From a virus, in the IMG/VR virus record IMGVR_UViG_3300037317_000129, positions 1-33,497 of that record: a stretch of DNA of 33,497 nt; one strand, given 5' to 3'. Below, piece after piece: positions 1 to 33,497 of the stretch (position 1 is its first letter; each line of letters opens with the position of its first letter). The notes beneath the pieces were generated by a model, which was not told where the DNA came from, made no database searches, and saw nothing but the letters and a program-made list of their open reading frames with translations. Position numbers and translations under genes: made by a program.

Positions 1-127
1 AAAAAAAATGGACCAAAAGCGAGCTAAAATATGTACGAGGATATAATTTTTATCCAACCTGTGAATCGTGCGACGCCTTTGAAAACGGCAAGTGCCATAT
101 CGTCAAAGGTAACGTCGATGAGCAAAA
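1..127. repeat. Direct terminal repeat, left copy (circular closure)
   Basis: These 127 bases are identical to 33371-33497. An exact overlap of 127, a common de Bruijn assembly k-mer size, indicates a circular or circularly permuted molecule of 33,370 bp assembled from short reads, not a biological terminal repeat. The terminase/portal type (headful packaging) fits circular permutation. Confidence 0.95.
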
Positions 128-395
128 AGGTTCTTGCAACTTCTTCCGCTCACGGGGCATCAAATTATCTAAATACCAAGAATATAACCCCACTCACGAA
201 AAACACGAAGCTAGATATAAAGAACATGACCACCGACCCGTATGCGGCAACTGCCGTTTTTACCAAGGTCAAAAGTCATGCCAATTGGTGGAAGGTTTAG
301 TTAGCCCAACGGATGCAAGGTGTATAGCATGGAAACGAAAAGAGAGCGACTTCGCGAACCAAGACGCCGACTTTGGAAAATCGTCGAAGAGCTAA
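1..395 (+). CDS. Cysteine-rich double HiPIP-like protein (3' part; 5' end at 33358)
   Basis: Across the circular junction this frame gives a 135-aa protein starting at a TTG (33358) behind an AAAAGGAG ribosome site and ending with TAA at 393-395. It holds eight cysteines in two similar modules: C25-x2-C28-x7-C36-x13-C50 and C86-x2-C89-x8-C98-x13-C112 followed by x2-W. A V-x-G-x-V stretch follows the third cysteine of each module. The spacing resembles the small high-potential iron-sulfur-like proteins found in many phage genomes, so each module may bind a metal or Fe-S centre; that is inference. It lies just after small head-region genes. In a linear annotation it would be lost, and a shadow frame at 31-300 called instead. 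Confidence 0.75.
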   Translation, partial: KKWTKSELKYVRGYNFYPTCESCDAFENGKCHIVKGNVDEQKGSCNFFRSRGIKLSKYQEYNPTHEKHEARYKEHDHRPVCGNCRFYQGQKSCQLVEGLVSPTDARCIAWKRKESDFANQDADFGKSSKS

Positions 396-6323: not shown

Positions 6324-7277
6324 ATGTCATCTATCACTACAACCAGCACTTTACCAGCTCCGGTGCAACAAAGTTTTTCTTATAAGCTTTTGTCAGTACC
6401 AGTGCCTAATTTTATCCATAAAATTCCTGCAATGCACAAGCAAATGCCTAGAAACGGTGGTACGACGCTAAGAATGCGGCGATACAACCCTCTTCCTACA
6501 GCGACTGTACCTCTTGGCAATAGTGGTGTTACACCTCCACCGGCGCAATTAACCGCTGTGGATATTGATGCAAAAATGGATTTTTATGGACTTTATGTTC
6601 GTTTAAACGAACAAGTAACTTTACAGAACCAAGACCCCGTCCTTAATGAAGCAGCAGCACGTTTAGGCGTCTCGCTTCGTCAAACTGAAGACGAACTAAC
6701 GCGAGATATGCTCGCTTCTACAGCTAGTTTTGTTAACGCCGTCGGTGGAGTTAACGGCGATAATCCAACCGAAATTACGCGCAGTGACGTGGACGATATC
6801 GTCCGTACGTTACTTGACGCTAACGCTTGGACCATCCTCGACAATATTGAAGGCGAAGACAAATTTGGTACCGCGCCAACCCGCGATGCTTATTTTGCAC
6901 TTTGCTCGACTGCATTAACAGGCGATTTGGATAACGTAGCCGGATTTATCCATAAAAATCAGTATCCATCACCAATGAATGCCTTGCGAAGTGAATGGGG
7001 GTCGATTGGAAACCTCAGATTCTTAGTGAGTTCCATTGGATCGAAAACCCTAAACGCTTCAGCAAACGGTCGCGATGTTTTCAATATTTTTTGCGTCGGC
7101 CTTGAAGCATATGCTTGCATAGAGCAAGACGGATATTCCGCACAGTTCATCTATAGAGCCCCAATCTATGATGGACCGCTAGCTCTTAACGCAAGTGTCG
7201 GCTACAAGTTTGCCGAAGTACCTCGTATCACCAATGATGCCTGGATCATCAATCTACGTGCAACGAGGAGGTTATAA
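6324..7277 (+). CDS. Major capsid protein, N4-gp56 family
   Basis: A 317-aa protein following the scaffold, with AAGGAT before the ATG. It carries the arrangement of N4-gp56-type coat proteins: an N-terminal GGTTLRMRRYNPLPTATVPL, then DIDAKMDFYGLYVRLNEQV, LRQTEDELTRDMLASTA, and a C-terminal segment with GRDVFNIFCVGLEAYACI, APIYDGPLALNASVGYKF and WIINLRATRRL. It should adopt the HK97 fold and form the shell. Length is in the normal range for the family (about 280-400 aa). Highest-confidence structural call besides terminase and portal. Confidence 0.88.
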   Translation: MSSITTTSTLPAPVQQSFSYKLLSVPVPNFIHKIPAMHKQMPRNGGTTLRMRRYNPLPTATVPLGNSGVTPPPAQLTAVDIDAKMDFYGLYVRLNEQVTLQNQDPVLNEAAARLGVSLRQTEDELTRDMLASTASFVNAVGGVNGDNPTEITRSDVDDIVRTLLDANAWTILDNIEGEDKFGTAPTRDAYFALCSTALTGDLDNVAGFIHKNQYPSPMNALRSEWGSIGNLRFLVSSIGSKTLNASANGRDVFNIFCVGLEAYACIEQDGYSAQFIYRAPIYDGPLALNASVGYKFAEVPRITNDAWIINLRATRRL

Positions 7278-17046: not shown

Positions 17047-17234
17047 TATTTATTCCTTTCTTCCATAAAGCGTTGCATCATTTGAATATATTTTTCTTCA
17101 AGCCTACACAAGCGCCCGTGAAAGTCTTTCATTTCATTTTTCATATCATTTTGAAAAGATAAATTATCTCTATGCACAAACCAAACCGCACCAATGGTAG
17201 ACCCTGCAATTGTTAAAACTTGTAGCCAGTCCAT
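17046..17234 (-). CDS. KDFHGRLC small membrane protein, first copy (62 aa)
   Basis: Start chosen at ATG 17234, which overlaps the stop of the coiled-coil gene (TGATG); a TTG one codon upstream is possible. MDWLQVLTIAGSTIGAVWFV is a membrane helix; the tail reads NEMKDFHGRLCRLEEKYIQM and ends QRFMEERNK. It is the longest and least degenerate member of the tandem family. The conserved C-terminal motif and very short length suggest an assembly or interaction tag. No database family can be named from the sequence. Confidence 0.6.
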   Translation of the reverse strand: MDWLQVLTIAGSTIGAVWFVHRDNLSFQNDMKNEMKDFHGRLCRLEEKYIQMMQRFMEERNK

Positions 17235-17737
17235 CAATTATCACCTTTGTTTTTACGTCTTCGTTCCCATACTCGTTTCATGGCTTCGCTGCGTTTATTT
17301 GGTATATCGCTTACGCTAGCTGTAGACTCTTTGTAAAGATGATTCATGATATTTTCCGTTTCAACAACCGCTATACGTTCGCTTAACCTTGCAATATCTT
17401 TTCTTATTTCCTTTATTTCGTTGTCTATGTTATCAAATCGTGCGCTCACTTTATTGTATTGTTCAGTAGATTTTTTATCGCTCTTGTCGAATTGTTCAGT
17501 AAACTTCTTGTCCATTTTTTCAAATTGTTCAGTAAACTTCTTGTCCATTTTTTCAAATTGTTCAGTAAATTTTTTGTCCATTTTTTCAAATTGTTCAGTA
17601 AATTTTTTGTCCATTTTTTCAAATCTTTCATCTATTTTTTCAAATTTCTTATCCATTCGATAAATAACCCAACCAATTAAAGAAAAAATAGGCACTAGAG
17701 TTGGTAGAGTGTTTTGAGCTAATTCTAAAAGTTCCAT
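17234..17737 (-). CDS. Membrane-anchored coiled-coil repeat protein, 167 aa
   Basis: First gene of the third reverse island. ATG 17737 has AAGG upstream. Residues 12-27 (PTLVPIFSLIGWVIYR) form a membrane helix, followed by at least four copies of an 11-residue repeat of type EQFEKMDKKFT (about residues 38-85) and a further heptad coiled coil (NEIKEIRKDIARLSERIAVV). The basic C terminus is EAMKRVWERRRKNKG. A long membrane-tethered rod, probably oligomeric. It is co-transcribed with the tiny membrane proteins. An exclusion or lysis scaffold role is conjecture. Confidence 0.6.
   Translation of the reverse strand: MELLELAQNTLPTLVPIFSLIGWVIYRMDKKFEKIDERFEKMDKKFTEQFEKMDKKFTEQFEKMDKKFTEQFEKMDKKFTEQFDKSDKKSTEQYNKVSARFDNIDNEIKEIRKDIARLSERIAVVETENIMNHLYKESTASVSDIPNKRSEAMKRVWERRRKNKGDN
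17458..17622. repeat. Five 33-bp tandem repeats within the coiled-coil gene
   Basis: Units begin at 17458, 17491, 17524, 17557 and 17590 with exact 33-base period, the outermost ones diverged. Each encodes one 11-residue (hendecad) unit, so copy-number change keeps the frame. Confidence 0.85.
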
Positions 17738-17865: not shown

Positions 17866-17884
17866 GGGCGTGAGATTTCCGCCC
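17866..17884 (+). promoter_or_regulatory. 5' leader hairpin of the tail-fibre mRNA
   Basis: GGGCG (17866-17870), nine-base loop, CGCCC (17880-17884), 22 bases before the start codon at 17906. A stem at the extreme 5' end would be expected to slow 5'-dependent decay. It does not cover the GAGG ribosome site. Confidence 0.4.
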
Positions 17885-17905
17885 AGAGAAAATGAGGTAT
17901 ATACA

Positions 17906-18781
17906 ATGACTAGCCAAACCGGTAGCTTTAATGCAGTAGCTGGAGAAAATCCAACTTCATATTTAAATCAAAATCAACCATCTAATGTTTTATTAATACG
18001 CGCTCAAAGGGCTCCTAAAAATTCTGATCGGAGACAAAAAATAGGGACGTTGTGGGTTGATCAAACCACCGATCAAACTTACCAGCTTACTACTGTTAGC
18101 GCCGGCGCGGCTAATTGGACTCTTTTAGGCCCTGGAGCATCGGACGTAGACACGCTAACAGGTGATTCTGGGGGAGCTATAAGCCCTAGTGGTGGTAATA
18201 TTACACTGGCTGGCGGATCAAATATCACATCTTCTGGATCAGGTTCTACAATTACTTTTGCACTAGATAATTCTATTAATGTTTCCTCTGATATTACAAC
18301 CGGCGAACTCGATGTTGATAACATCAATATTAATGGTAATACCATCAGTTCTACCGATACCAATGGAAATATTAACTTAAGTCCAGATGGAACAGGCGTT
18401 GTTGCCACTTCCAAAGCGGATATTAACGGCGGTAATATCGATGGAACAACCATTGGCGGTAGCACACCAGCAGCCGGAAATTTTACTACTGTAGACGCAA
18501 GTGGAAATATCTCTCTTAGCTCTGCGGCTACACAATTGCAAGTAACCGGCGGAGCGGTAACGGATTTTATTGGTACGGCCACCTTAAGTTCTGGAACGGT
18601 AACCGTAGCTAATACCAATATCGCCGCTAATGATCACATATTTTTAACGTATCAAGGCACTAGCATATCTGATAGCGGACAGCTAAGTTATACCATTAGT
18701 GCAGGCACGTCATTTACCATCGAATCGACAAATGCATCAGATGCCAATGACGTTTCTTACTTTATCGTGAGAGAATTGTAA
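17906..18781 (+). CDS. Tail fibre protein, 291 aa
   Basis: The start is ATG 17906 behind GAGG; the frame is open from GTG 17870 but that lies in the leader hairpin. Residues about 5-85 (TSYLNQNQPSNVLLIRAQRA, IGTLWVDQTTDQTYQLTTVS, NWTLLGPGAS) resemble a virion-attachment domain shared with the protein encoded at 21263. Next come DTLTGDSGGAISPSGGNITL and repeated GNTISSTDTNGNINLSPDGT strings, typical of trimeric fibre shafts. The end (AANDHIFLTYQ, SYFIVREL) is a small beta domain. First gene of the fibre operon; TAATG overlap with the next. Confidence 0.7.
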   Translation: MTSQTGSFNAVAGENPTSYLNQNQPSNVLLIRAQRAPKNSDRRQKIGTLWVDQTTDQTYQLTTVSAGAANWTLLGPGASDVDTLTGDSGGAISPSGGNITLAGGSNITSSGSGSTITFALDNSINVSSDITTGELDVDNININGNTISSTDTNGNINLSPDGTGVVATSKADINGGNIDGTTIGGSTPAAGNFTTVDASGNISLSSAATQLQVTGGAVTDFIGTATLSSGTVTVANTNIAANDHIFLTYQGTSISDSGQLSYTISAGTSFTIESTNASDANDVSYFIVREL

Positions 18782-19113
18782 TGCCGGCGATAAAAGACTC
18801 ATTAAAGCCTTTAGAAATGGCTACAGTGGCTTCAAGTGGTTTAACGGGCAGTTATGCCGCAGCAAAGACACTAGAGCAACCAACAGCGATTCTGCGCGTT
18901 GTGAACGATTCTTCGGAAACGGTGCTTCTTTCATACGATGGGAGCACCGATCATGATGCAGTCGACAGCGGCCAAACCTTGCATTTGGAAGCTGCCACTA
19001 ATCGCGAGCCACAAAACGAGCGAAGCATCTTAGCAAAAAATACGGTCATTTCGCTTAAAGGCACAGCTGGTCAGGGAAATATTTACATAACTGGATACTA
19101 CCACCCGGGATAA
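18781..19113 (+). CDS. Small tail/decoration beta protein A, 110 aa
   Basis: It pairs with the next gene: both carry L-x-x-(S/F)-x-D-G-x-x-D-H in the first half (here TVLLSYDGSTDHDAVDSGQT) and a beta C terminus with G-x-x-Y/V-x-x-x-Y. They look like diverged duplicates of a small beta-sandwich protein. Located inside the fibre operon, so a fibre-base or adaptor role is likely. G+C-rich compared with the flanking regions. Confidence 0.5.
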   Translation: MPAIKDSLKPLEMATVASSGLTGSYAAAKTLEQPTAILRVVNDSSETVLLSYDGSTDHDAVDSGQTLHLEAATNREPQNERSILAKNTVISLKGTAGQGNIYITGYYHPG

Positions 19114-19114
19114 T

Positions 19115-19465
19115 ATGGCACTTGGAGTAAAACTACTACCGGAAACCGTTCGAACACTAGCTTTTGGATCGATTGGCGCGGCATATATGGGTATTGGGAC
19201 GGCTTTTGAAAACCCACTACGCATCATTCGCTTTCAAAACCTAACGGACACGAGATTAATTTTTAGTTTTGACGGTATTAATGATCATTTTTATTTACCT
19301 AAGCGGGGATATCTTTTGTTAGACGTCTGCGCAAACAAAACCATCGAAACCGGTTTTTATATCGGCGCTGGAACCAGATTTTACGTAAAAGAGGACTCTA
19401 CCGCCCCAAGCCCAACCGATGGATTAGTAACCGTAACGGCATGGTATAGCCACGAGATAATATGA
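19115..19465 (+). CDS. Small tail/decoration beta protein B, 116 aa
   Basis: Diverged paralogue of the preceding protein: RLIFSFDGINDHFYLPKRGY aligns with its SETVLLSYDGSTDHDAVDSG, and GAGTRFYVKEDS aligns with its AKNTVISLKGTA. Starts two bases after the previous stop; ATGA overlap with the next gene. Probably a structural partner of the first copy, such as an asymmetric ring or fibre connector; that is inference. Confidence 0.5.
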   Translation: MALGVKLLPETVRTLAFGSIGAAYMGIGTAFENPLRIIRFQNLTDTRLIFSFDGINDHFYLPKRGYLLLDVCANKTIETGFYIGAGTRFYVKEDSTAPSPTDGLVTVTAWYSHEII

Positions 19466-20691
19466 GTCAGGAAGGCGTTTATTTTACTGAAACGGTCATC
19501 GAGACCATAGAAGGCAACAGCGGTGGCCCCGTAACGCCTGACGCCAGTGGCAATTTTTTTATTCTTGGGGAAAACTCTCAAGGCATAGATACCAGCGGCG
19601 ATCCCGTAACGCATACTCTAACCGTAACGGCTTTCGATGCGACAGAAACGCAAAAAGGCGTCGTCGAGCTTGCAACAGACGCCGAAGCAATTGCAGGCAG
19701 TGCCAGCACCAATTTAGCCATCATCCCAAGCAGCTTAACCGCGAAGCTAGGCACGCAAACGGCAAATGGCATAGCGTACGGGGCCGGGACTAGTTCAGCA
19801 CTGCAATGGACAAGCGCGGGTACTGATGGGCAACTAATCATCGGCGCTACGGGAGGCGCTCCGGCGTTTGCGGATTTAACCTCTACCGGCGGCACTATAG
19901 CCATAACGGCAGGCGCAAATACGCTAAATATCGATGTAGATGTTGAGGTAGCTACTCAGTTTGATACCGACAGCGGTTCAGCGATTCCTAGCGGAAATAT
20001 ACTTGATATTTTAGGCGGAACAAATATCAATACAGCCGGCGCTACAAACGTTGTTACCGTCAATCTTGACACGGATGTTGCAGGGCTAACTTCTCTTGAA
20101 GTGGATAACCTGCGCTTAGACGGCAACACCATCAGCTCTACCGATACGAACGGCGACATCACTTTGACACCAGATGGCACCGGCGTGGTTAATATATCTT
20201 ACGGCACGCAATACGCAATTCCTTATTTTGAAACCGGCGGAGAAATTACTGAAGTCGGCCCTTTAACTGATGGGCAATTAATTATTGGCGCGACAGGCGC
20301 AGCTCCCGCCGCTGCAACGCTTACTGCTGGTACAAACATATCGATTACCAACGCTGCAAACTCCATAACAATAGATGCCCATAGCGGATCACAAGTTGTT
20401 AATGTCACGTCGCTTGATAATACGGATTCCCCTTATACCGTGCTTAGCGATGATTATTACATGAGTTGTGACGTATCTAGCGGAACCCTAACTATTGACT
20501 TGCCGGATAGCCCCGATACCGGACGCGTCTTTGTAGTTAAAGATTCGGGAGGTGATGCGAATACTAACAATATAACGGTTACAACCGTTGGTGGCGCGGT
20601 AAATATTGATGGAGCGACAACTTTTGTGATGAATACAGATTATCAAGCGACGCAATTTCTTTTTAACGGCACAAGTTATGAGGTATTTTAA
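19462..20691 (+). CDS. Tail fibre protein, 409 aa
   Basis: Long, low-charge Gly/Thr/Ala/Asn-rich shaft. SGGPVTPDASGNFFILGENS near the N terminus, TVTAFDATETQKGVVELATD (a phage fibre repeat found in many tail fibres), then LDGNTISSTDTNGDITLTPD, the same string as in the 291-aa fibre. The C-terminal domain (NTDSPYTVLSDDYYMSCDVS, TLTIDLPDSPDTGRVFVVKD, FLFNGTSYEVF) is a common fibre tip module. G+C is visibly higher than in neighbouring genes, which fits acquisition from another phage. Confidence 0.75.
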   Translation: MSQEGVYFTETVIETIEGNSGGPVTPDASGNFFILGENSQGIDTSGDPVTHTLTVTAFDATETQKGVVELATDAEAIAGSASTNLAIIPSSLTAKLGTQTANGIAYGAGTSSALQWTSAGTDGQLIIGATGGAPAFADLTSTGGTIAITAGANTLNIDVDVEVATQFDTDSGSAIPSGNILDILGGTNINTAGATNVVTVNLDTDVAGLTSLEVDNLRLDGNTISSTDTNGDITLTPDGTGVVNISYGTQYAIPYFETGGEITEVGPLTDGQLIIGATGAAPAAATLTAGTNISITNAANSITIDAHSGSQVVNVTSLDNTDSPYTVLSDDYYMSCDVSSGTLTIDLPDSPDTGRVFVVKDSGGDANTNNITVTTVGGAVNIDGATTFVMNTDYQATQFLFNGTSYEVF

Positions 20692-21260
20692 TGGCGTATA
20701 CAGGAAGAGCCGCTGATAAACAAGTTTATACATCAAAAGGGCCTACCACAGCTAATGAATTTAATTTTCCTTCTTGGGTAAGATTAGATAGCCAAACCGC
20801 TTCAAGTTCCAGCTCAATTGAATTTACATCTTTTGTTGATTCTAATTTTAAAACTTATGTAGTTGTTTTAGAAGAAGTGGATTTAAGTGGAGGGTCTAAT
20901 TTAGAAATGGAAATTTCCGATGATAATGGCTCTACTTGGCAAACAAGCAATTATCAATCAGGAAATACCTTTATTGCCTATAATTCGGCAACTTGGATCA
21001 ATCAAAACATCACTGATGCTTTTCAAATTTTTACGGGAGCTATTAATAACACCAATGGTCAAATTTATTTATATAATTTTAATAGTTCTGCAAATGTTTC
21101 AATTTATGGATTTTTTCGGCCACAAAATTATAATGGATTTGAAATGACTTATGGTCGACAAACCACCCTTACTAATGTTGATGCATTTAGATTTGTTCCA
21201 ATTGGTGTAAATACTATTGACGCAGGAAAATTTACCCTCTTTGGTTTATATACAGGTTAG
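20691..21260 (+). CDS. Tail fibre tip/receptor-binding protein candidate, 189 aa
   Basis: TAATG start. Aromatic- and Asn-rich beta protein: LEMEISDDNGSTWQTSNYQS, IYLYNFNSSANVSIYGFFRP, and a C terminus VDAFRFVPIGVNTIDAGKFT / LFGLYTG. This ending (FRF-x-P-x-G-x-x-x-x-x-G-x-F-x-L-F/Y-G) is typical of phage fibre or appendage distal domains. Its base composition is clearly more A and T than the upstream fibre gene, so it probably has a different origin. Ends with TAG. Confidence 0.55.
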   Translation: MAYTGRAADKQVYTSKGPTTANEFNFPSWVRLDSQTASSSSSIEFTSFVDSNFKTYVVVLEEVDLSGGSNLEMEISDDNGSTWQTSNYQSGNTFIAYNSATWINQNITDAFQIFTGAINNTNGQIYLYNFNSSANVSIYGFFRPQNYNGFEMTYGRQTTLTNVDAFRFVPIGVNTIDAGKFTLFGLYTG

Positions 21261-21262
21261 TT

Positions 21263-22507
21263 ATGCCAGACTTTAATCACAATTTTCTCGGTCGTCAATC
21301 CCTTCAATACCTCGGTAACCGCGCAGCAACGCCACCTAACTTTATTAAGTTAAACCGTGATCCTACCACGCAAGATTTTAAAGAATTTGTCGTTGGTGAT
21401 TTATGGTTAAATACTACGAGCAACGGCCTTTGGTATTTAGCAAATTTAACAGGTAGCGTAGCGACTTGGGTTCAAATTACAGGAGGAGCGGCTGCACTTG
21501 ATACGCTTACCGGGGATACCGGCGGCGCCGTTCCGCCTGACATGAGCGACAATATTAATATCCTTGGCGGCACAGGCATACAAGTTAACGGCAACCCCGC
21601 AACAAATACGCTAACGATTGAAGGGATTGACCCTATAGCAACCCAATATGACGCCGACAGTGGCAGCGCAACGCCTAATTCCGGCGTTGTTAATCTCGTG
21701 GGTGGCAACAATATTTCTACCTCAGCTACGGGAAATACGGTAACTTTTTCTACCATCAATCCCGAAACTCCATTAGGAAAGATTAATGTAGATGATAATG
21801 TAGCGCCTGGAACCAATCCGGTGGTTGCTGATAGCGCCGGGGAAATAACCATTGCAGGGGATGTCGTTAATAACAATTCAACACCAATTCAAACTATCTC
21901 ACGCGCGGCAAACGCATTTGACATCGAAGTTCAATCCGCGACAACTGTAACAGGGGCTCCAGGAAATAAATTAGCGAGCGGCTTAGCGCAATTTGAATCT
22001 ACCGAATTCAACGTAAATAGCGATGGCTATGTCAGTTTAGTAGGTGGCGGCACGGCAACAAGTTCTTTGTTTAATGTTTTTTTAAATTCAACCATATCAA
22101 ATGTCACTGGAGATGGAACAGGATATTTAATCATATTTGATAATGAAGAATTTGATTTAAATAATGACTACAATATTGCGACAGGAAGATTTACGGCGCC
22201 ATTTGATGGGTATTATCAATTTAACTCTTCTGTCGGTTTTTCCGGTCTTACATCTTCTCACACCACCGGTAAACTACAGTTTTTAATAGGTGGCACGGAA
22301 GTACAAGGAGTTGTCAGGGGTAATTTTTTTAGCATGTCTGATGCAGGCAATAATTTAGCCTTAAATATCTCTACATTTTTAAACCTATCCGCCGGGGATC
22401 AAGTAGGTGTATTTACGGAAGTTACTGGCGGACCAAAAACAGTAGATATTTTAAGGTTTACAGGTCTAATTACTTCTTTTTCAGGATTTATAATAAGGAA
22501 AGATTAA
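21263..22507 (+). CDS. Tail fibre with C1q/TNF-like C-terminal domain, 414 aa
   Basis: Residues 1-80 (NFLGRQSLQYLGNRAATPPN, FVVGDLWLNTTSNGLWYLAN, TWVQITGGAA) repeat the attachment-domain layout of the first fibre. A shaft with DTLTGDTGGAVPPDMSDNIN follows. Residues about 255-412 (SSLFNVFLNSTISNVTGDGT, DLNNDYNIATGRFTAPFDGY, YQFNSSVGFSG, GFIIRKD) have the F-x-V...D...Y-x-x-x-x-G-x-F-T-A-P-x-x-G-x-Y-x-F pattern of C1q/TNF-like jelly-roll trimers. Likely a trimeric receptor-binding fibre alternative to the 409-aa one. Confidence 0.7.
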   Translation: MPDFNHNFLGRQSLQYLGNRAATPPNFIKLNRDPTTQDFKEFVVGDLWLNTTSNGLWYLANLTGSVATWVQITGGAAALDTLTGDTGGAVPPDMSDNINILGGTGIQVNGNPATNTLTIEGIDPIATQYDADSGSATPNSGVVNLVGGNNISTSATGNTVTFSTINPETPLGKINVDDNVAPGTNPVVADSAGEITIAGDVVNNNSTPIQTISRAANAFDIEVQSATTVTGAPGNKLASGLAQFESTEFNVNSDGYVSLVGGGTATSSLFNVFLNSTISNVTGDGTGYLIIFDNEEFDLNNDYNIATGRFTAPFDGYYQFNSSVGFSGLTSSHTTGKLQFLIGGTEVQGVVRGNFFSMSDAGNNLALNISTFLNLSAGDQVGVFTEVTGGPKTVDILRFTGLITSFSGFIIRKD

Positions 22508-28882: not shown

Positions 28883-29362
28883 ATGAAATATACAAAAGAA
28901 GAATTAGTAGAAATTTGCGATGAGTTAATAAAATGGGCTCTAAAAGATGACTCACTTTCTTTAATGCAATTCTTTCTCACTGAGTACGCTACAAAAAGAA
29001 AGCTTACAAAACAAAAGCTTGATTATTTGATCAATACTTATTCAGCGCTAAACGATACGTTTTTTTACGCTAAATGTATTTTAGTCGATAAGATACTAAA
29101 CAGCAAAACTTTGCAAGAAAACACGTTCAAAGCTTCGTTGATACGATACTTGCGCATGTACGATGAATATCTTAAAGAGTCTGAGCAGACAGAAAACTTA
29201 GAGCGAAATATAGCACTTGGCGTAGCTACTCTCTTTTCTGAAGATTACTCTAAAGAACAGCTGGAAGGTGATTTCGCGAAGATTCACGCTAACAATTTAA
29301 TGAAAAGACAAAAGACTATGGACCCGTCAATAAAGAAGTCTGATGAACATAGAAACAAATAG
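28883..29362 (+). CDS. Probable terminase small subunit, 159 aa
   Basis: Directly upstream of and overlapping the large subunit by 20 bases, with AGGGG before the ATG. The N-terminal half (MKYTKEELVEICDELIKWAL, TEYATKRKLTKQKLDYLINT) contains a helical segment that could be the DNA-binding HTH. The C terminus is charged. Small-subunit families are very diverse, so position is the main evidence. It would recognise the packaging start and recruit TerL. Confidence 0.6.
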   Translation: MKYTKEELVEICDELIKWALKDDSLSLMQFFLTEYATKRKLTKQKLDYLINTYSALNDTFFYAKCILVDKILNSKTLQENTFKASLIRYLRMYDEYLKESEQTENLERNIALGVATLFSEDYSKEQLEGDFAKIHANNLMKRQKTMDPSIKKSDEHRNK

Positions 29363-30713
29363 AACGCTTAGAAACTTTAAGCCACGGCCTTATCAATTGC
29401 CGATTTTAGCTGCTCTAGATGAGGGTTTTCGGCGCGTCTTAGCAATATTACCGCGCAGGGCCGGCAAAGACATCACAGCGCTAAATTATGTCATTAGAGA
29501 GATGCAAAAGACGCCAGGCGTTTATTACTACGTTTTCCCGACATACTCTCAAGGCCGCAAAGTCATCTGGGACAGTATGACAATTGAAGGCGTTCGTATG
29601 CTTGATTTCTTCCCTAAAGAATGGGTCGAATCGATGAATCAGCAAGAAATGAAAATTCGCTACAAAAACGGCTCAATCTTTCAAGTGGTGGGCTCTGACA
29701 ACTTCGATAGGCTTGTTGGAACAAATCCACGCGGCGTTGTCTTCTCAGAATACGCGCTTCAAGACCCTAGAGCTTATCAATACATTAGACCGATTCTAAC
29801 GGCAAATAAGGGCTGGGCTTTATTTATCTCTACACCAAGAGGAAAAAACCATCTATACGCGCTCTATGAGCTTGCTAAGGTCAGTCCTGATTGGTATCTC
29901 ATTAAGCTAAGCGTGGAAGACACCGGCCATATCCCGCTCTCTGAGATTGAAAAAGAGCGCCAAGAAGGAATCATGAGCGATGATCTCATTCAGCAAGAAT
30001 ATTACACTTCATTTGACCTAGGCGTAGAAGGCTCTTATTACGCTAAATACATCGATCAGCTTCGCGTTGACAAGCGGATTGGCGTTGTTCCGTGGGAGAA
30101 CGGTTTTCTTGTGCATACGGCGTGGGACCTTGGTATGAGGGATTCGACATCAATTATTTTTTTTCAAGTGATTGGTCAAACGGTTCGTATTATTGACTGT
30201 TATCAAAACCATTCTCAAGGGCTAGAACATTATGCAAAAGTTTTAAGCTCAAAACCTTACAACTACGGAAAACATATAGCACCACACGACATCAAAGTCA
30301 GAGAGCTTGGAAGCGGCGTAACAAGACTGGAAAAAGCAAAAGAGCTGGGCATTCACTTTACTCTGTCAAACGATGTTTCGATAGCCGATGGCATCGAAGC
30401 TTCAAAAACTTTGTTTAGTAAACTGTGGGTCGATGAAACGAAGTGTTCAGAGCTTATCAATGCTTTAGAAAACTACAGGCGGGAATATGACAGTAAGCGC
30501 AAAGTGTATAAGAATAATCCTCTTCACGATTGGTCTTCTCATTTCGCAGACAGCTTTCGCTATCTTGCTGTATCCCTTCCTAAAACCCGTGACGGCTTAA
30601 GCGCTGAAGAGCGTGAACGCCAATATTACGAAGCAATATACGGCAATCATCACAACTTGCCCGATTTTTTCAAACAAGATCATGAACCGCTACCCCTTAA
30701 ATTACCTATATGA
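29343..30713 (+). CDS. terL: Terminase large subunit, 456 aa
   Basis: Packaging ATPase plus nuclease. Walker A-type PRRAGKDI at residues 38-45, adenine-binding region YQLPILAALDEGF ahead of it, Walker B-type GVVFSE (131-136) with catalytic Glu, coupling motif FISTPRGKNH (161-170). The nuclease domain has D262 in TAWDLGMRDST and D396/D403 in HDWSSHFADSFRY, the two acidic clusters that bind metals. Full length for the family. It translocates DNA into the procapsid and makes the headful cut. ATG 29343 overlaps TerS; its own stop overlaps the portal start. Confidence 0.93.
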   Translation: MNIETNRTLRNFKPRPYQLPILAALDEGFRRVLAILPRRAGKDITALNYVIREMQKTPGVYYYVFPTYSQGRKVIWDSMTIEGVRMLDFFPKEWVESMNQQEMKIRYKNGSIFQVVGSDNFDRLVGTNPRGVVFSEYALQDPRAYQYIRPILTANKGWALFISTPRGKNHLYALYELAKVSPDWYLIKLSVEDTGHIPLSEIEKERQEGIMSDDLIQQEYYTSFDLGVEGSYYAKYIDQLRVDKRIGVVPWENGFLVHTAWDLGMRDSTSIIFFQVIGQTVRIIDCYQNHSQGLEHYAKVLSSKPYNYGKHIAPHDIKVRELGSGVTRLEKAKELGIHFTLSNDVSIADGIEASKTLFSKLWVDETKCSELINALENYRREYDSKRKVYKNNPLHDWSSHFADSFRYLAVSLPKTRDGLSAEERERQYYEAIYGNHHNLPDFFKQDHEPLPLKLPI

Positions 30714-32815
30714 GCATGCATGCATTTCCGCAACTAGGACCTACTTATTACACTGAGAAAGACAAAGCTCTTAAAGACATGATGGAATATTACTACGCGC
30801 AAAGTATTACCATTAATCAGTCCTTCTGGTCGGAAGCGGACATTGACACCCGGTTTGAAGCGGGCGATCAAACACTTTGGAATGATATCTATGGGAATTT
30901 GCCTGCTTTTCGTAAGCGTCAATTTAATTTTAACAGGATACGCCGAATCATCAACATGATTACGGGCTATCAACGGCGCAATCGTAAATCAACAGTTGTT
31001 ATACCAGTGGAGACAGGCAATGAAACAACAGCTAATCAACTTTCTCAAGCGCTGCTTTGGGCTAACAGAAACTCAAGTGCCTATCAGACTATCTCAAATT
31101 CTTTCCATGGAGCTTGTGTTACGGGCCTTAATCTTCTTAGCGTTTACATGGATTATAATAGCGATCCTATTTCAGGTGACATCAAGCTTGATAATCTAGC
31201 GTATAATTCTTTTATCATTGATCCCTTCTTTCGTAAGCAAGACCTTAGCGATTGCAACTTTATTTGGCGCCGTTCATGGCTTTCTCATCAGCAAATAATT
31301 AGCTTATTGCCAGACAGAGCAGAAGAAATCGCCGCAATGGAACCTGTTCCATACCACGACGCTAGATTTCAGTTTATGCCAGAGAGCTATAACTACGGCA
31401 TGAAGAATCTTTTAACCTACGATGAGTTTTGGTACCGCGATTATCGTGAACAGACGCTAATAGTAGACGTTCAAAGCGGTGAGACGATGGAATGGAAAGG
31501 CTCAAAAAAAGATTTTGAGCAGTTTATGAAAGATTTTCCTCAAGTGACCACGATAAAGACGCAAATACCTACCGTTCGGCTTGGCATTTCGGTGCAAGAT
31601 AAGATCATGTATCACGGCCCAAACCCGCTAAACATTGATCATTACCCGTTTGTACCAGTGATGGGCTATTATAACCCACAAATGCCTTATTTTCCTGATC
31701 GGATTCAGGGTGTTGTTAGAAACCTTCGCGATTCGCAATATCTTTACAACAGACGGCGCGTTATTGAGCTTGATATGCTTGAGTCGCAAGTCACTACTGG
31801 CTGGATTTTTAAGGAAAACTCTCTTGTAAACCCAAAAGATATCTATCTCTACGGTCAAGGAAGGGGTATAGCGCTTAAAGAAGAAGCGCAGATGAGCGAT
31901 ATTTCACAAATTCCACCTCCGCAAGTACCGCCTTCAATGTTACAGCTGTCAGAATTCCTAGGAAACGAAATACAGCAGATATCAGGCGTTAATGAAGAGC
32001 TTCTTGGCATGGCCGATGATGATAAAGCTGGTATATTGTCGATGCTTAGGCAAGGAGCTGGACTTACTACCCTTCAAGTGCTTTTTGATCAATTAGATTA
32101 TTCGCAAAAGCTTCTTGGCAATATTTACTTGTCGTTAATTCAAAATAATTTTACACCCGGAAAAATACGAAAGATAATTAATGAAAAACCAACAGATGAA
32201 TTTTACTCCAAAGCATTCGGAAAATACGACTGTGAGGTTGAGGAAGGCCTTAACACCACAACCCAAAAACAAATGCAATTTGCGCAGCTCCTCCAGCTCC
32301 GCGAAGCTGGCGTTCCCGTTCCCAACGATACGCTGCTTAAAGCGTCTACTATGCAAAACAAACAAGAGCTCATCGAAGATATCAGCAAAGAACAACAAGC
32401 CGCGCAGCAAGCGCAGCAGAAGCAACAACAACTACAAATGCAGCAGTTGGAGTCTCAAATCAATCTGGCCAATGCAAGGGCCGTTGCCGATACAGGACTT
32501 GGATACGAAAGAGCGTCGCGAATTATGGAAAATCAGGCACTTGCTAAAGAACGCGAAGCAGAGGCTCAAAAAGACGACGCTAATGCGGCTCTTGACATGG
32601 TCAAAGCGGCGAAAGAATTAGAAGGAATGAATTTGGATCAAATTATTAAGGCCCTGCAAATCGTTGATACTGTCCGCCAACATACGGAACTTTCTAATCA
32701 AGAAAGAAAAGAAAATAGGCAAGGTCAGGCAATGGTAGATAGGGGCGAAGCAGCCTTGCAGCAGGGAGAAAGCCCTGGACTGCAATTTCTATCACAACAA
32801 CAAGGAGAAATATAA
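30710..32815 (+). CDS. Portal protein, P22-like, 701 aa
   Basis: Length matches the large P22-type portal (725 aa). The N-terminal half shows ADIDTRFEAGDQTLWNDIYG, FNFNRIRRIINMITGYQRRN and WANRNSSAYQTISNSFHGAC, the typical start of this family; the clip and wing regions follow, including FVPVMGYYNPQ and VVRNLRDSQYLYNRRRVIEL. The C-terminal part is a long glutamine-rich helix (KEQQAAQQAQQKQQQLQMQQ) like the P22 barrel that senses headful packing. Dodecameric channel of the head. ATGA overlap with terL. Confident. Confidence 0.9.
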   Translation: MSMHAFPQLGPTYYTEKDKALKDMMEYYYAQSITINQSFWSEADIDTRFEAGDQTLWNDIYGNLPAFRKRQFNFNRIRRIINMITGYQRRNRKSTVVIPVETGNETTANQLSQALLWANRNSSAYQTISNSFHGACVTGLNLLSVYMDYNSDPISGDIKLDNLAYNSFIIDPFFRKQDLSDCNFIWRRSWLSHQQIISLLPDRAEEIAAMEPVPYHDARFQFMPESYNYGMKNLLTYDEFWYRDYREQTLIVDVQSGETMEWKGSKKDFEQFMKDFPQVTTIKTQIPTVRLGISVQDKIMYHGPNPLNIDHYPFVPVMGYYNPQMPYFPDRIQGVVRNLRDSQYLYNRRRVIELDMLESQVTTGWIFKENSLVNPKDIYLYGQGRGIALKEEAQMSDISQIPPPQVPPSMLQLSEFLGNEIQQISGVNEELLGMADDDKAGILSMLRQGAGLTTLQVLFDQLDYSQKLLGNIYLSLIQNNFTPGKIRKIINEKPTDEFYSKAFGKYDCEVEEGLNTTTQKQMQFAQLLQLREAGVPVPNDTLLKASTMQNKQELIEDISKEQQAAQQAQQKQQQLQMQQLESQINLANARAVADTGLGYERASRIMENQALAKEREAEAQKDDANAALDMVKAAKELEGMNLDQIIKALQIVDTVRQHTELSNQERKENRQGQAMVDRGEAALQQGESPGLQFLSQQQGEI

Positions 32816-33292: not shown

Positions 33293-33357
33293 ATCAACTC
33301 GTATAGAGAAAATTGAATAATACAATGTTCCTTTAATATACAGAAAAGGAGCAATTT

Positions 33358-33497
33358 TTGAAAGGGCTTAAAAAAAAATGGACCAAAAGCGAGCTAAAAT
33401 ATGTACGAGGATATAATTTTTATCCAACCTGTGAATCGTGCGACGCCTTTGAAAACGGCAAGTGCCATATCGTCAAAGGTAACGTCGATGAGCAAAA
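33358..33497 (+). CDS. 5' part of the double HiPIP-like protein (continues at base 1)
   Basis: TTG 33358 lies eight bases after AAAAGGAG and opens the frame that continues over the circular join to 395. This stretch encodes the first 46 residues, including C25, C28 and C36 (YPTCESCDAFENGKC). It is cut only by the end of the window. Confidence 0.75.
   Translation, partial: MKGLKKKWTKSELKYVRGYNFYPTCESCDAFENGKCHIVKGNVDEQ
33371..33497. repeat. Direct terminal repeat, right copy
   Basis: This is the second copy of bases 1-127. Joining 33370 to base 1 restores one open reading frame across the junction, which supports circularity. Confidence 0.95.

Follow-up and report, generated by a model that had tools for sequence, protein, structure and literature searches.

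The window, by which we mean the whole 33,497-nt stretch of viral DNA that was analysed (IMG/VR record IMGVR_UViG_3300037317_000129), is a circular phage contig with a genome unit of 33,370 nt, and the exact direct repeat of 127 nt at its ends (Table 1) is the usual assembly overlap of such a contig. A gene for a small cysteine-rich protein runs across the join. Its frame is closed upstream at 33336, is open from 33337 and continues in phase across 33370/1 to the stop codon ending at 395. The TTG at 33358 is the sole start codon ahead of the cysteine modules, the next in-frame starts being codons 100 and 101, and a Shine-Dalgarno-like AAGGAG lies 6 nt 5' of it. The product of 135 residues is basic (pI 9.2) and has exactly eight cysteines (25, 28, 36 and 50; 86, 89, 98 and 112), which form an N module with the spacing C-x2-C-x7-C-x13-C and a C module with C-x2-C-x8-C-x13-C at a distance of 61 residues from each other. 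A sequence-only reading had proposed a gene hidden at 33370/1 with two tandem C-x2-C-x7/8-C-x13-C modules and eight cysteines; the crossing is borne out by the in-phase frame, the exact repeat and the ribosome-binding-site-like AAGGAG, and the spacing is exactly as claimed. The interval it gave, 33358-33497, covers the first 46 codons with three of the cysteines, but the remainder of the gene lies at 128-395. The gene does span the join, but to call it invisible in a linear reading was an overstatement, because the terminal repeat leaves a 5'-open ORF at 3-395 that displays both modules with all eight cysteines.

Table 1. Features of the twin-module locus in the window.
Feature	Position	Strand	Evidence or remark
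Terminase large subunit, neighbour	29343..30713	+	phrog_2, E 2.7e-25
Portal protein, neighbour	30710..32815	+	phrog_156, E 1.6e-86
Shine-Dalgarno-like AAGGAG	33346..33351	+	read from sequence
Twin-module gene, 5' part, TTG 33358; terminal repeat copy from 33371	33358..33497	+	
Terminal direct repeat, copy 2	33371..33497	.	
Terminal direct repeat, copy 1	1..127	.	assembly overlap
Twin-module gene, continuation past circular join; stop 393-395	1..395	+	135 aa whole product
N module, Cys25-x2-Cys28-x7-Cys36-x13-Cys50	60..137	+	N-module profile: HiPIPs first in PDB
C module, Cys86-x2-Cys89-x8-Cys98-x13-Cys112	243..323	+	PF01355 22 bits
Major head protein, downstream past join	6324..7277	+	phrog_1357, E 2.8e-31

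Upstream on the same strand, the genes for the terminase large subunit and the portal protein are followed by two small ORFs; on the downstream side, small lysine-rich ORFs lead to a scaffold-like ORF, assigned by its position and its similarity to contig L123, and then to the gene for the major head protein. One of the lysine-rich ORFs (704-1003, 99 aa, 3' of the twin-module gene) has a counterpart in L123 (2537-2845) with 66% identity over 91 aa and is more conserved in that contig than the portal is. Elsewhere in the window, a 167-aa ORF on the minus strand (17234-17737) contains tandem EKMDKKFTEQF-type repeats and is probably a coiled coil, and three fibre-like ORFs at 17870-22507 carry repeated blocks, common to each other and to ORFs of L122 and L123, as modular receptor-binding proteins do.

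The double motif is not a product of chance: the strict motif occurred in 8 ORFs of 300 simulated genomes (first-order Markov) and in 14 ORFs of real sequence from related phages (93 loci, 1.15 Mb), and no ORF of either set had it twice. Three pattern scans of viral contigs for a HiPIP-type module led to 12 contigs with convincing coding modules, namely two proteins of about 147 aa with one module (L096, L101), a 567-aa module protein (L097), a short frame (L109), five portal-type proteins that carry the module C-terminally (L115, L116, L117, L119, L121) and three doubles (L113/L122, L102/L123, L118/L124); 13 stretches with stop codons inside the motif (3 + 10) and a 46-aa ORF (L114) were set aside. 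A profile search from the window and the three doubles gave four more double contigs (L125-L128), and one with L127 and L128 gave eleven more (L135-L141 and L143-L146), so that pattern scans and profile searches together place the same two-module protein in 18 IMG/VR contigs besides the window. The candidate view that the protein is unique to this phage was dropped in the light of these 18 contigs. Nor was the expectation confirmed that phage HiPIP-like proteins usually have one module, with doubles in 3 of 12 contigs from the pattern scans and in 18 besides the window after the profile searches.

The window protein aligns end to end with those of L102, L113 and L118; alignments A1 and A3 both run end to end, with all eight cysteines kept in 8/8 rows and 24-37% identity between the window protein and its seven relatives in A3 (37% to L113). 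A profile built without the window scored the window protein at 80.8 bits, compared with at most 31.7 bits in 10,000 shuffles with the cysteines fixed, and as a positive control A3 recovered 18/18 double-module records, 11 of them outside A3. A chance ORF or an assembly artefact at the contig join might be suspected from a gene that spans the assembly overlap and starts with TTG, but with the phase kept across the join, a ribosome-binding site in place, aligned products in 18 other contigs and such a score from a window-free profile this reading is extremely improbable; the artefact was rejected on the last two points, and the twin-module gene is a real gene. By tblastn, with the window protein, six relatives and one single-module protein as queries, no relative was found in 50,697 phage records. 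Single-sequence searches with the window protein returned 0/4 candidates in viral contigs and 0/21 in prokaryote genome contigs, A1 returned 0/55 in the prokaryote genome contigs, and PHROGs held no useful family for the window protein (best phrog_5016, E 0.002, annotated as unknown function).

A second branch of the family (L127, L128 and L135-L146; alignment A7), on contigs of up to 167 kb, is clearly related to A3 (99.9% by hhalign), and in most of its proteins the C module is lengthened by an insert of about 8 residues. By the look of its virion genes we judge this branch to be of crAss-like type. One of its contigs encodes, besides the twin-module protein, an additional single HiPIP-like module protein of 124 aa (L137:7495-7866). 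A weak single HiPIP-like module is also present in small ORFs among the early genes of the cultured Pelagibacter phages HTVC026P (L131:7144-7389) and HTVC202P (L130:6639-6848), with E values of 1e-4 and 2e-4 against the module profile.

When N and C models were built leave-one-out from 16 of the 19 double proteins, the N and C modules were sorted correctly in 32/32 cases, and those of the window were called N then C (34.8 vs 13.6 bits for the N module, 36.4 vs 19.6 bits for the C module). Left out were L125 (near-identical to L126), L145 (same protein as L146) and L144 (N module unmatched by the search pattern). Because the halves are distinguishable throughout, the module pair is old and was inherited together, with specialised halves and no recent duplication. 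The two-module architecture, an N-type and a C-type module some 60 residues apart in one protein, thus marks an old inherited family, which is a new observation. BLASTP of the N half against the C half of the window protein gave nothing (E 0.18); kinship of the halves is suggested by their shared pattern and by the match of both to HiPIPs.

HiPIPs are known as bacterial periplasmic electron carriers, and to be counted among them a protein should be Tat-exported to the periplasm and hold a [4Fe-4S] cluster with a potential of +50 to +500 mV. The proposed HiPIP likeness is supported by sequence. PF01355 scored the window C module at 22 bits, equal to the curated cut-off of 22 (E 2e-4), and gave no match to the window N module; among the relatives, L126 reached 23.7 bits, above the cut-off, and L102 17.1 bits, with no score for L113 and L118. 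Compared with all PDB chains, the A3 profile found 1hlq (1.5e-5) and PioC (1.2e-4), its eight best matches being HiPIPs throughout, and the A4 profile of twenty modules found PioC (6e-9) and 1hlq (6e-8) with HiPIPs in all ten best places, A4 being biased towards HiPIPs because some members of the family came from pattern scans that used HiPIP-like features. HiPIPs were likewise the top PDB matches of A5, the N-module profile, led by PioC (E 0.003) and 1hlq (0.016). Against six plasmid HiPIPs, hhalign gave moderate probabilities of 86% for A3 and 60% for the N modules, both single-comparison values; for the A7 branch alone the HiPIP link is weak (best PDB match PioC, E 0.05; hhalign probability 9%).

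Both window modules show the four-cysteine pattern C-x2-C-x(n)-C-x12/13-C and an aromatic residue at Cys4+3, which is Phe in the N module and Trp115 (codon end 332) in the C module. In HiPIPs, as described in PMC7462912, Trp at Cys4-1 is well conserved and an aromatic residue follows at Cys4+2 or +3. Trp at Cys4-1 is absent from 32/32 modules of the 16 double proteins, and the N-terminus of the window protein, read from sequence, has no twin-arginine motif and no hydrophobic stretch. Since this Trp and a Tat-type N-terminus are missing, we describe the modules as HiPIP-related, judging from their profiles, rather than place the protein itself among the HiPIPs. The two redox or metal centres that had been proposed stand as cysteine content only. 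AlphaFold modelled the full protein and the C module with very low confidence (pLDDT 38.3 and 47.5), which the absence of clear secondary structure described for PioC may help to explain.

Evidence on a role in the phage head comes from fusions and neighbourhoods. In L135, one 464-aa frame encodes a head maturation protease (phrog_1028, residues 32-185, E 5e-33) and then the twin module, with the major head protein (phrog_752) two ORFs downstream of the fusion, and single modules end some portal proteins, with a phrog_145 match in L119 and L121. Through these fusions the family is linked to head proteins, which is a new point. A terminase, portal, head, connector or virion-structural match lies nearby in 13/19 contigs (window, L123-L128, L135, L137, L138, L141, L143, L145), a raw count from the fetched neighbourhoods without a background rate; no recognised head gene was found near the twin module in the other six (L122, L136, L139, L140, L144, L146), as far as these were scanned. 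The position beside the packaging genes that the sequence-only reading had pointed out is correct for the window, where terminase and portal precede the gene, but it is not constant. G051, a relative of the window across the portal (54%) and the head protein (66-75%), carries the twin-module gene next to a RusA-like gene and at least 12 kb from the portal and major head genes, and a fixed place beside the packaging genes was dropped as it is contradicted by this position. In G052 (portal 36%, head protein 50%) the gene is found on the opposite strand, flanked by portal and scaffold, and in L123 and L143 it is on the strand opposite the portal and head genes. Scans with PF01355 and A3 detected the gene in 0/50 terminase/portal relatives of the window, 17 of them at least 31 kb long, these being the longest 50 of 89 distinct records (93 loci); for this reason we regard it as accessory, dispensable in the clade and kept where present.

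Two observations concern the head genes of these relatives. In L135, the motif AGNITG-x-x-T-x-D-x-x-LTQE-x-LK is found both in the protease/twin-module fusion (L135:7077-8468) and near the N-terminus of the adjoining major head protein (L135:9294-10808), possibly as a shared processing or docking sequence. In G051 the major head protein gene is split (L154:16092-18097) into an N-part and a C-part, matched over 56 aa and 209 aa; the stretch of about 1.2 kb that separates them contains a 344-aa ORF that by eye resembles a LAGLIDADG-type homing endonuclease, and Rfam showed no intron at gathering score in this region.

We tentatively favour, at somewhat less than an even chance, an accessory, head- or assembly-associated cytoplasmic protein of two HiPIP-related modules, each with a putative [4Fe-4S] cluster. 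The smallest HiPIPs (PioC/Iro type) would be the ancestors of the modules or have a common ancestor with them, and each module would hold one cluster through its four cysteines. Because such clusters would stay reduced in the reducing cytoplasm, the protein is probably no electron shuttle like the periplasmic HiPIPs; the clusters would hold together two tiny folds with almost no secondary structure of their own. From the fusion in L135 to a head maturation protease and the single modules that end some portals, we infer that the protein is accessory to head assembly or to the virion and would act near the portal, the protease or the packaging motor; more speculatively, it could be a redox- or iron-sensitive switch on assembly.

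A reducing compartment and the lack of an export signal would also suit modules of HiPIP ancestry that carry no cluster, have zinc or no metal bound, and act as small knobs, either structural or for binding nucleic acid or protein. The Trp that shields the HiPIP cluster is missing from every module sorted above, the protein is basic, and the N module weakly matches zf-HC3 (E 0.053, below the Pfam cut-off). A zinc ribbon, however, consists of two CxxC (or CxxH) knuckles, and in both modules the second cysteine pair is C-x13-C, which leaves no second knuckle; no zinc ribbon rivals the HiPIPs in the PDB profile searches, the best zinc finger for the N-module profile scores E 0.47 vs 0.003 for PioC, and the aromatic residue at Cys4+3 is kept. 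The zinc ribbon was rejected on spacing and on this competition in the PDB, and a zinc-binding or metal-free protein in general seems unlikely. The patchy distribution among terminase/portal relatives and the variable position and strand of the gene could instead speak for an auxiliary redox or iron-handling protein, which would carry electrons or spare or sense host iron during infection, unrelated to the virion and near head genes by coincidence; HiPIPs proper are electron carriers, according to PMC7462912. We consider this auxiliary role quite unlikely, as HiPIPs work in the periplasm and the protein shows no signal that would take it there, neither a redox partner nor a metabolic gene was recognised in its neighbourhood in the window, and the fusions are to a head protease and portals and none is to a metabolic enzyme.

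Extended to the whole family, the head-associated reading would mean that several uncultured phage lineages, including large-genome ones of crAss-like type, carry an ancient iron-sulfur protein with two clusters and an origin among the minimal HiPIPs, which is part of the head or acts on it (portal, maturation protease, packaging), with assembly or stability dependent on the iron-sulfur supply or redox state of the host; in this full form we find it doubtful. If true, a HiPIP-type module pair with head protease and portal fusions would extend the fold to virus assembly. It would also be a second case, unrelated to the lambda-type tail tip (PMC10721106), the sole phage structural [4Fe-4S] case to come up in our searches of open-licence literature, and would make testable why phages use iron-sulfur clusters.

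By titles and abstract openings, no phage HiPIP-like protein was found in the open-licence literature searched. The closest known proteins are the minimal HiPIPs PioC from Rhodopseudomonas palustris TIE-1 and Iro (PDB 6xyv, 7a4l, 7a58), with PioC as the best PDB match of A4. According to PMC7462912, the PioC cluster is ligated by Cys22/25/34/47 in a protein without clear secondary structure, and its spacing C-x2-C-x8-C-x12-C is nearly the same as C-x2-C-x7/8-C-x13-C in the phage modules, which have the Tyr before the first CxxC and the aromatic residue after Cys4 in common with PioC/Iro. PioC, however, has one module, is periplasmic and carries Trp46 before Cys4, whereas the phage protein has two modules, no export signal and never a Trp at this position. 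The phage C module scores at the gathering threshold of the HiPIPs of PF01355 (e.g. 1hlq, the second-best PDB match of A4), but these are exported, have one module and, in 1hlq, a longer Cys2-Cys3 loop than the phage modules, and the phage N module goes unrecognised by PF01355. The tail tip proteins lambda gpL and RcGTA gp13 hold a [4Fe-4S] cluster on four cysteines, its function being described as still unknown in PMC10721106. The likeness lies in an iron-sulfur site of four cysteines in a phage, putative in our case; the spacing of gpL Cys173/182/205/212 is unrelated to the twin modules, and the two are set apart by spacing and by place, tail tip as opposed to head region. The twin-module relatives, finally, share the same architecture over the full length, in L135 as a fusion to the head maturation protease.
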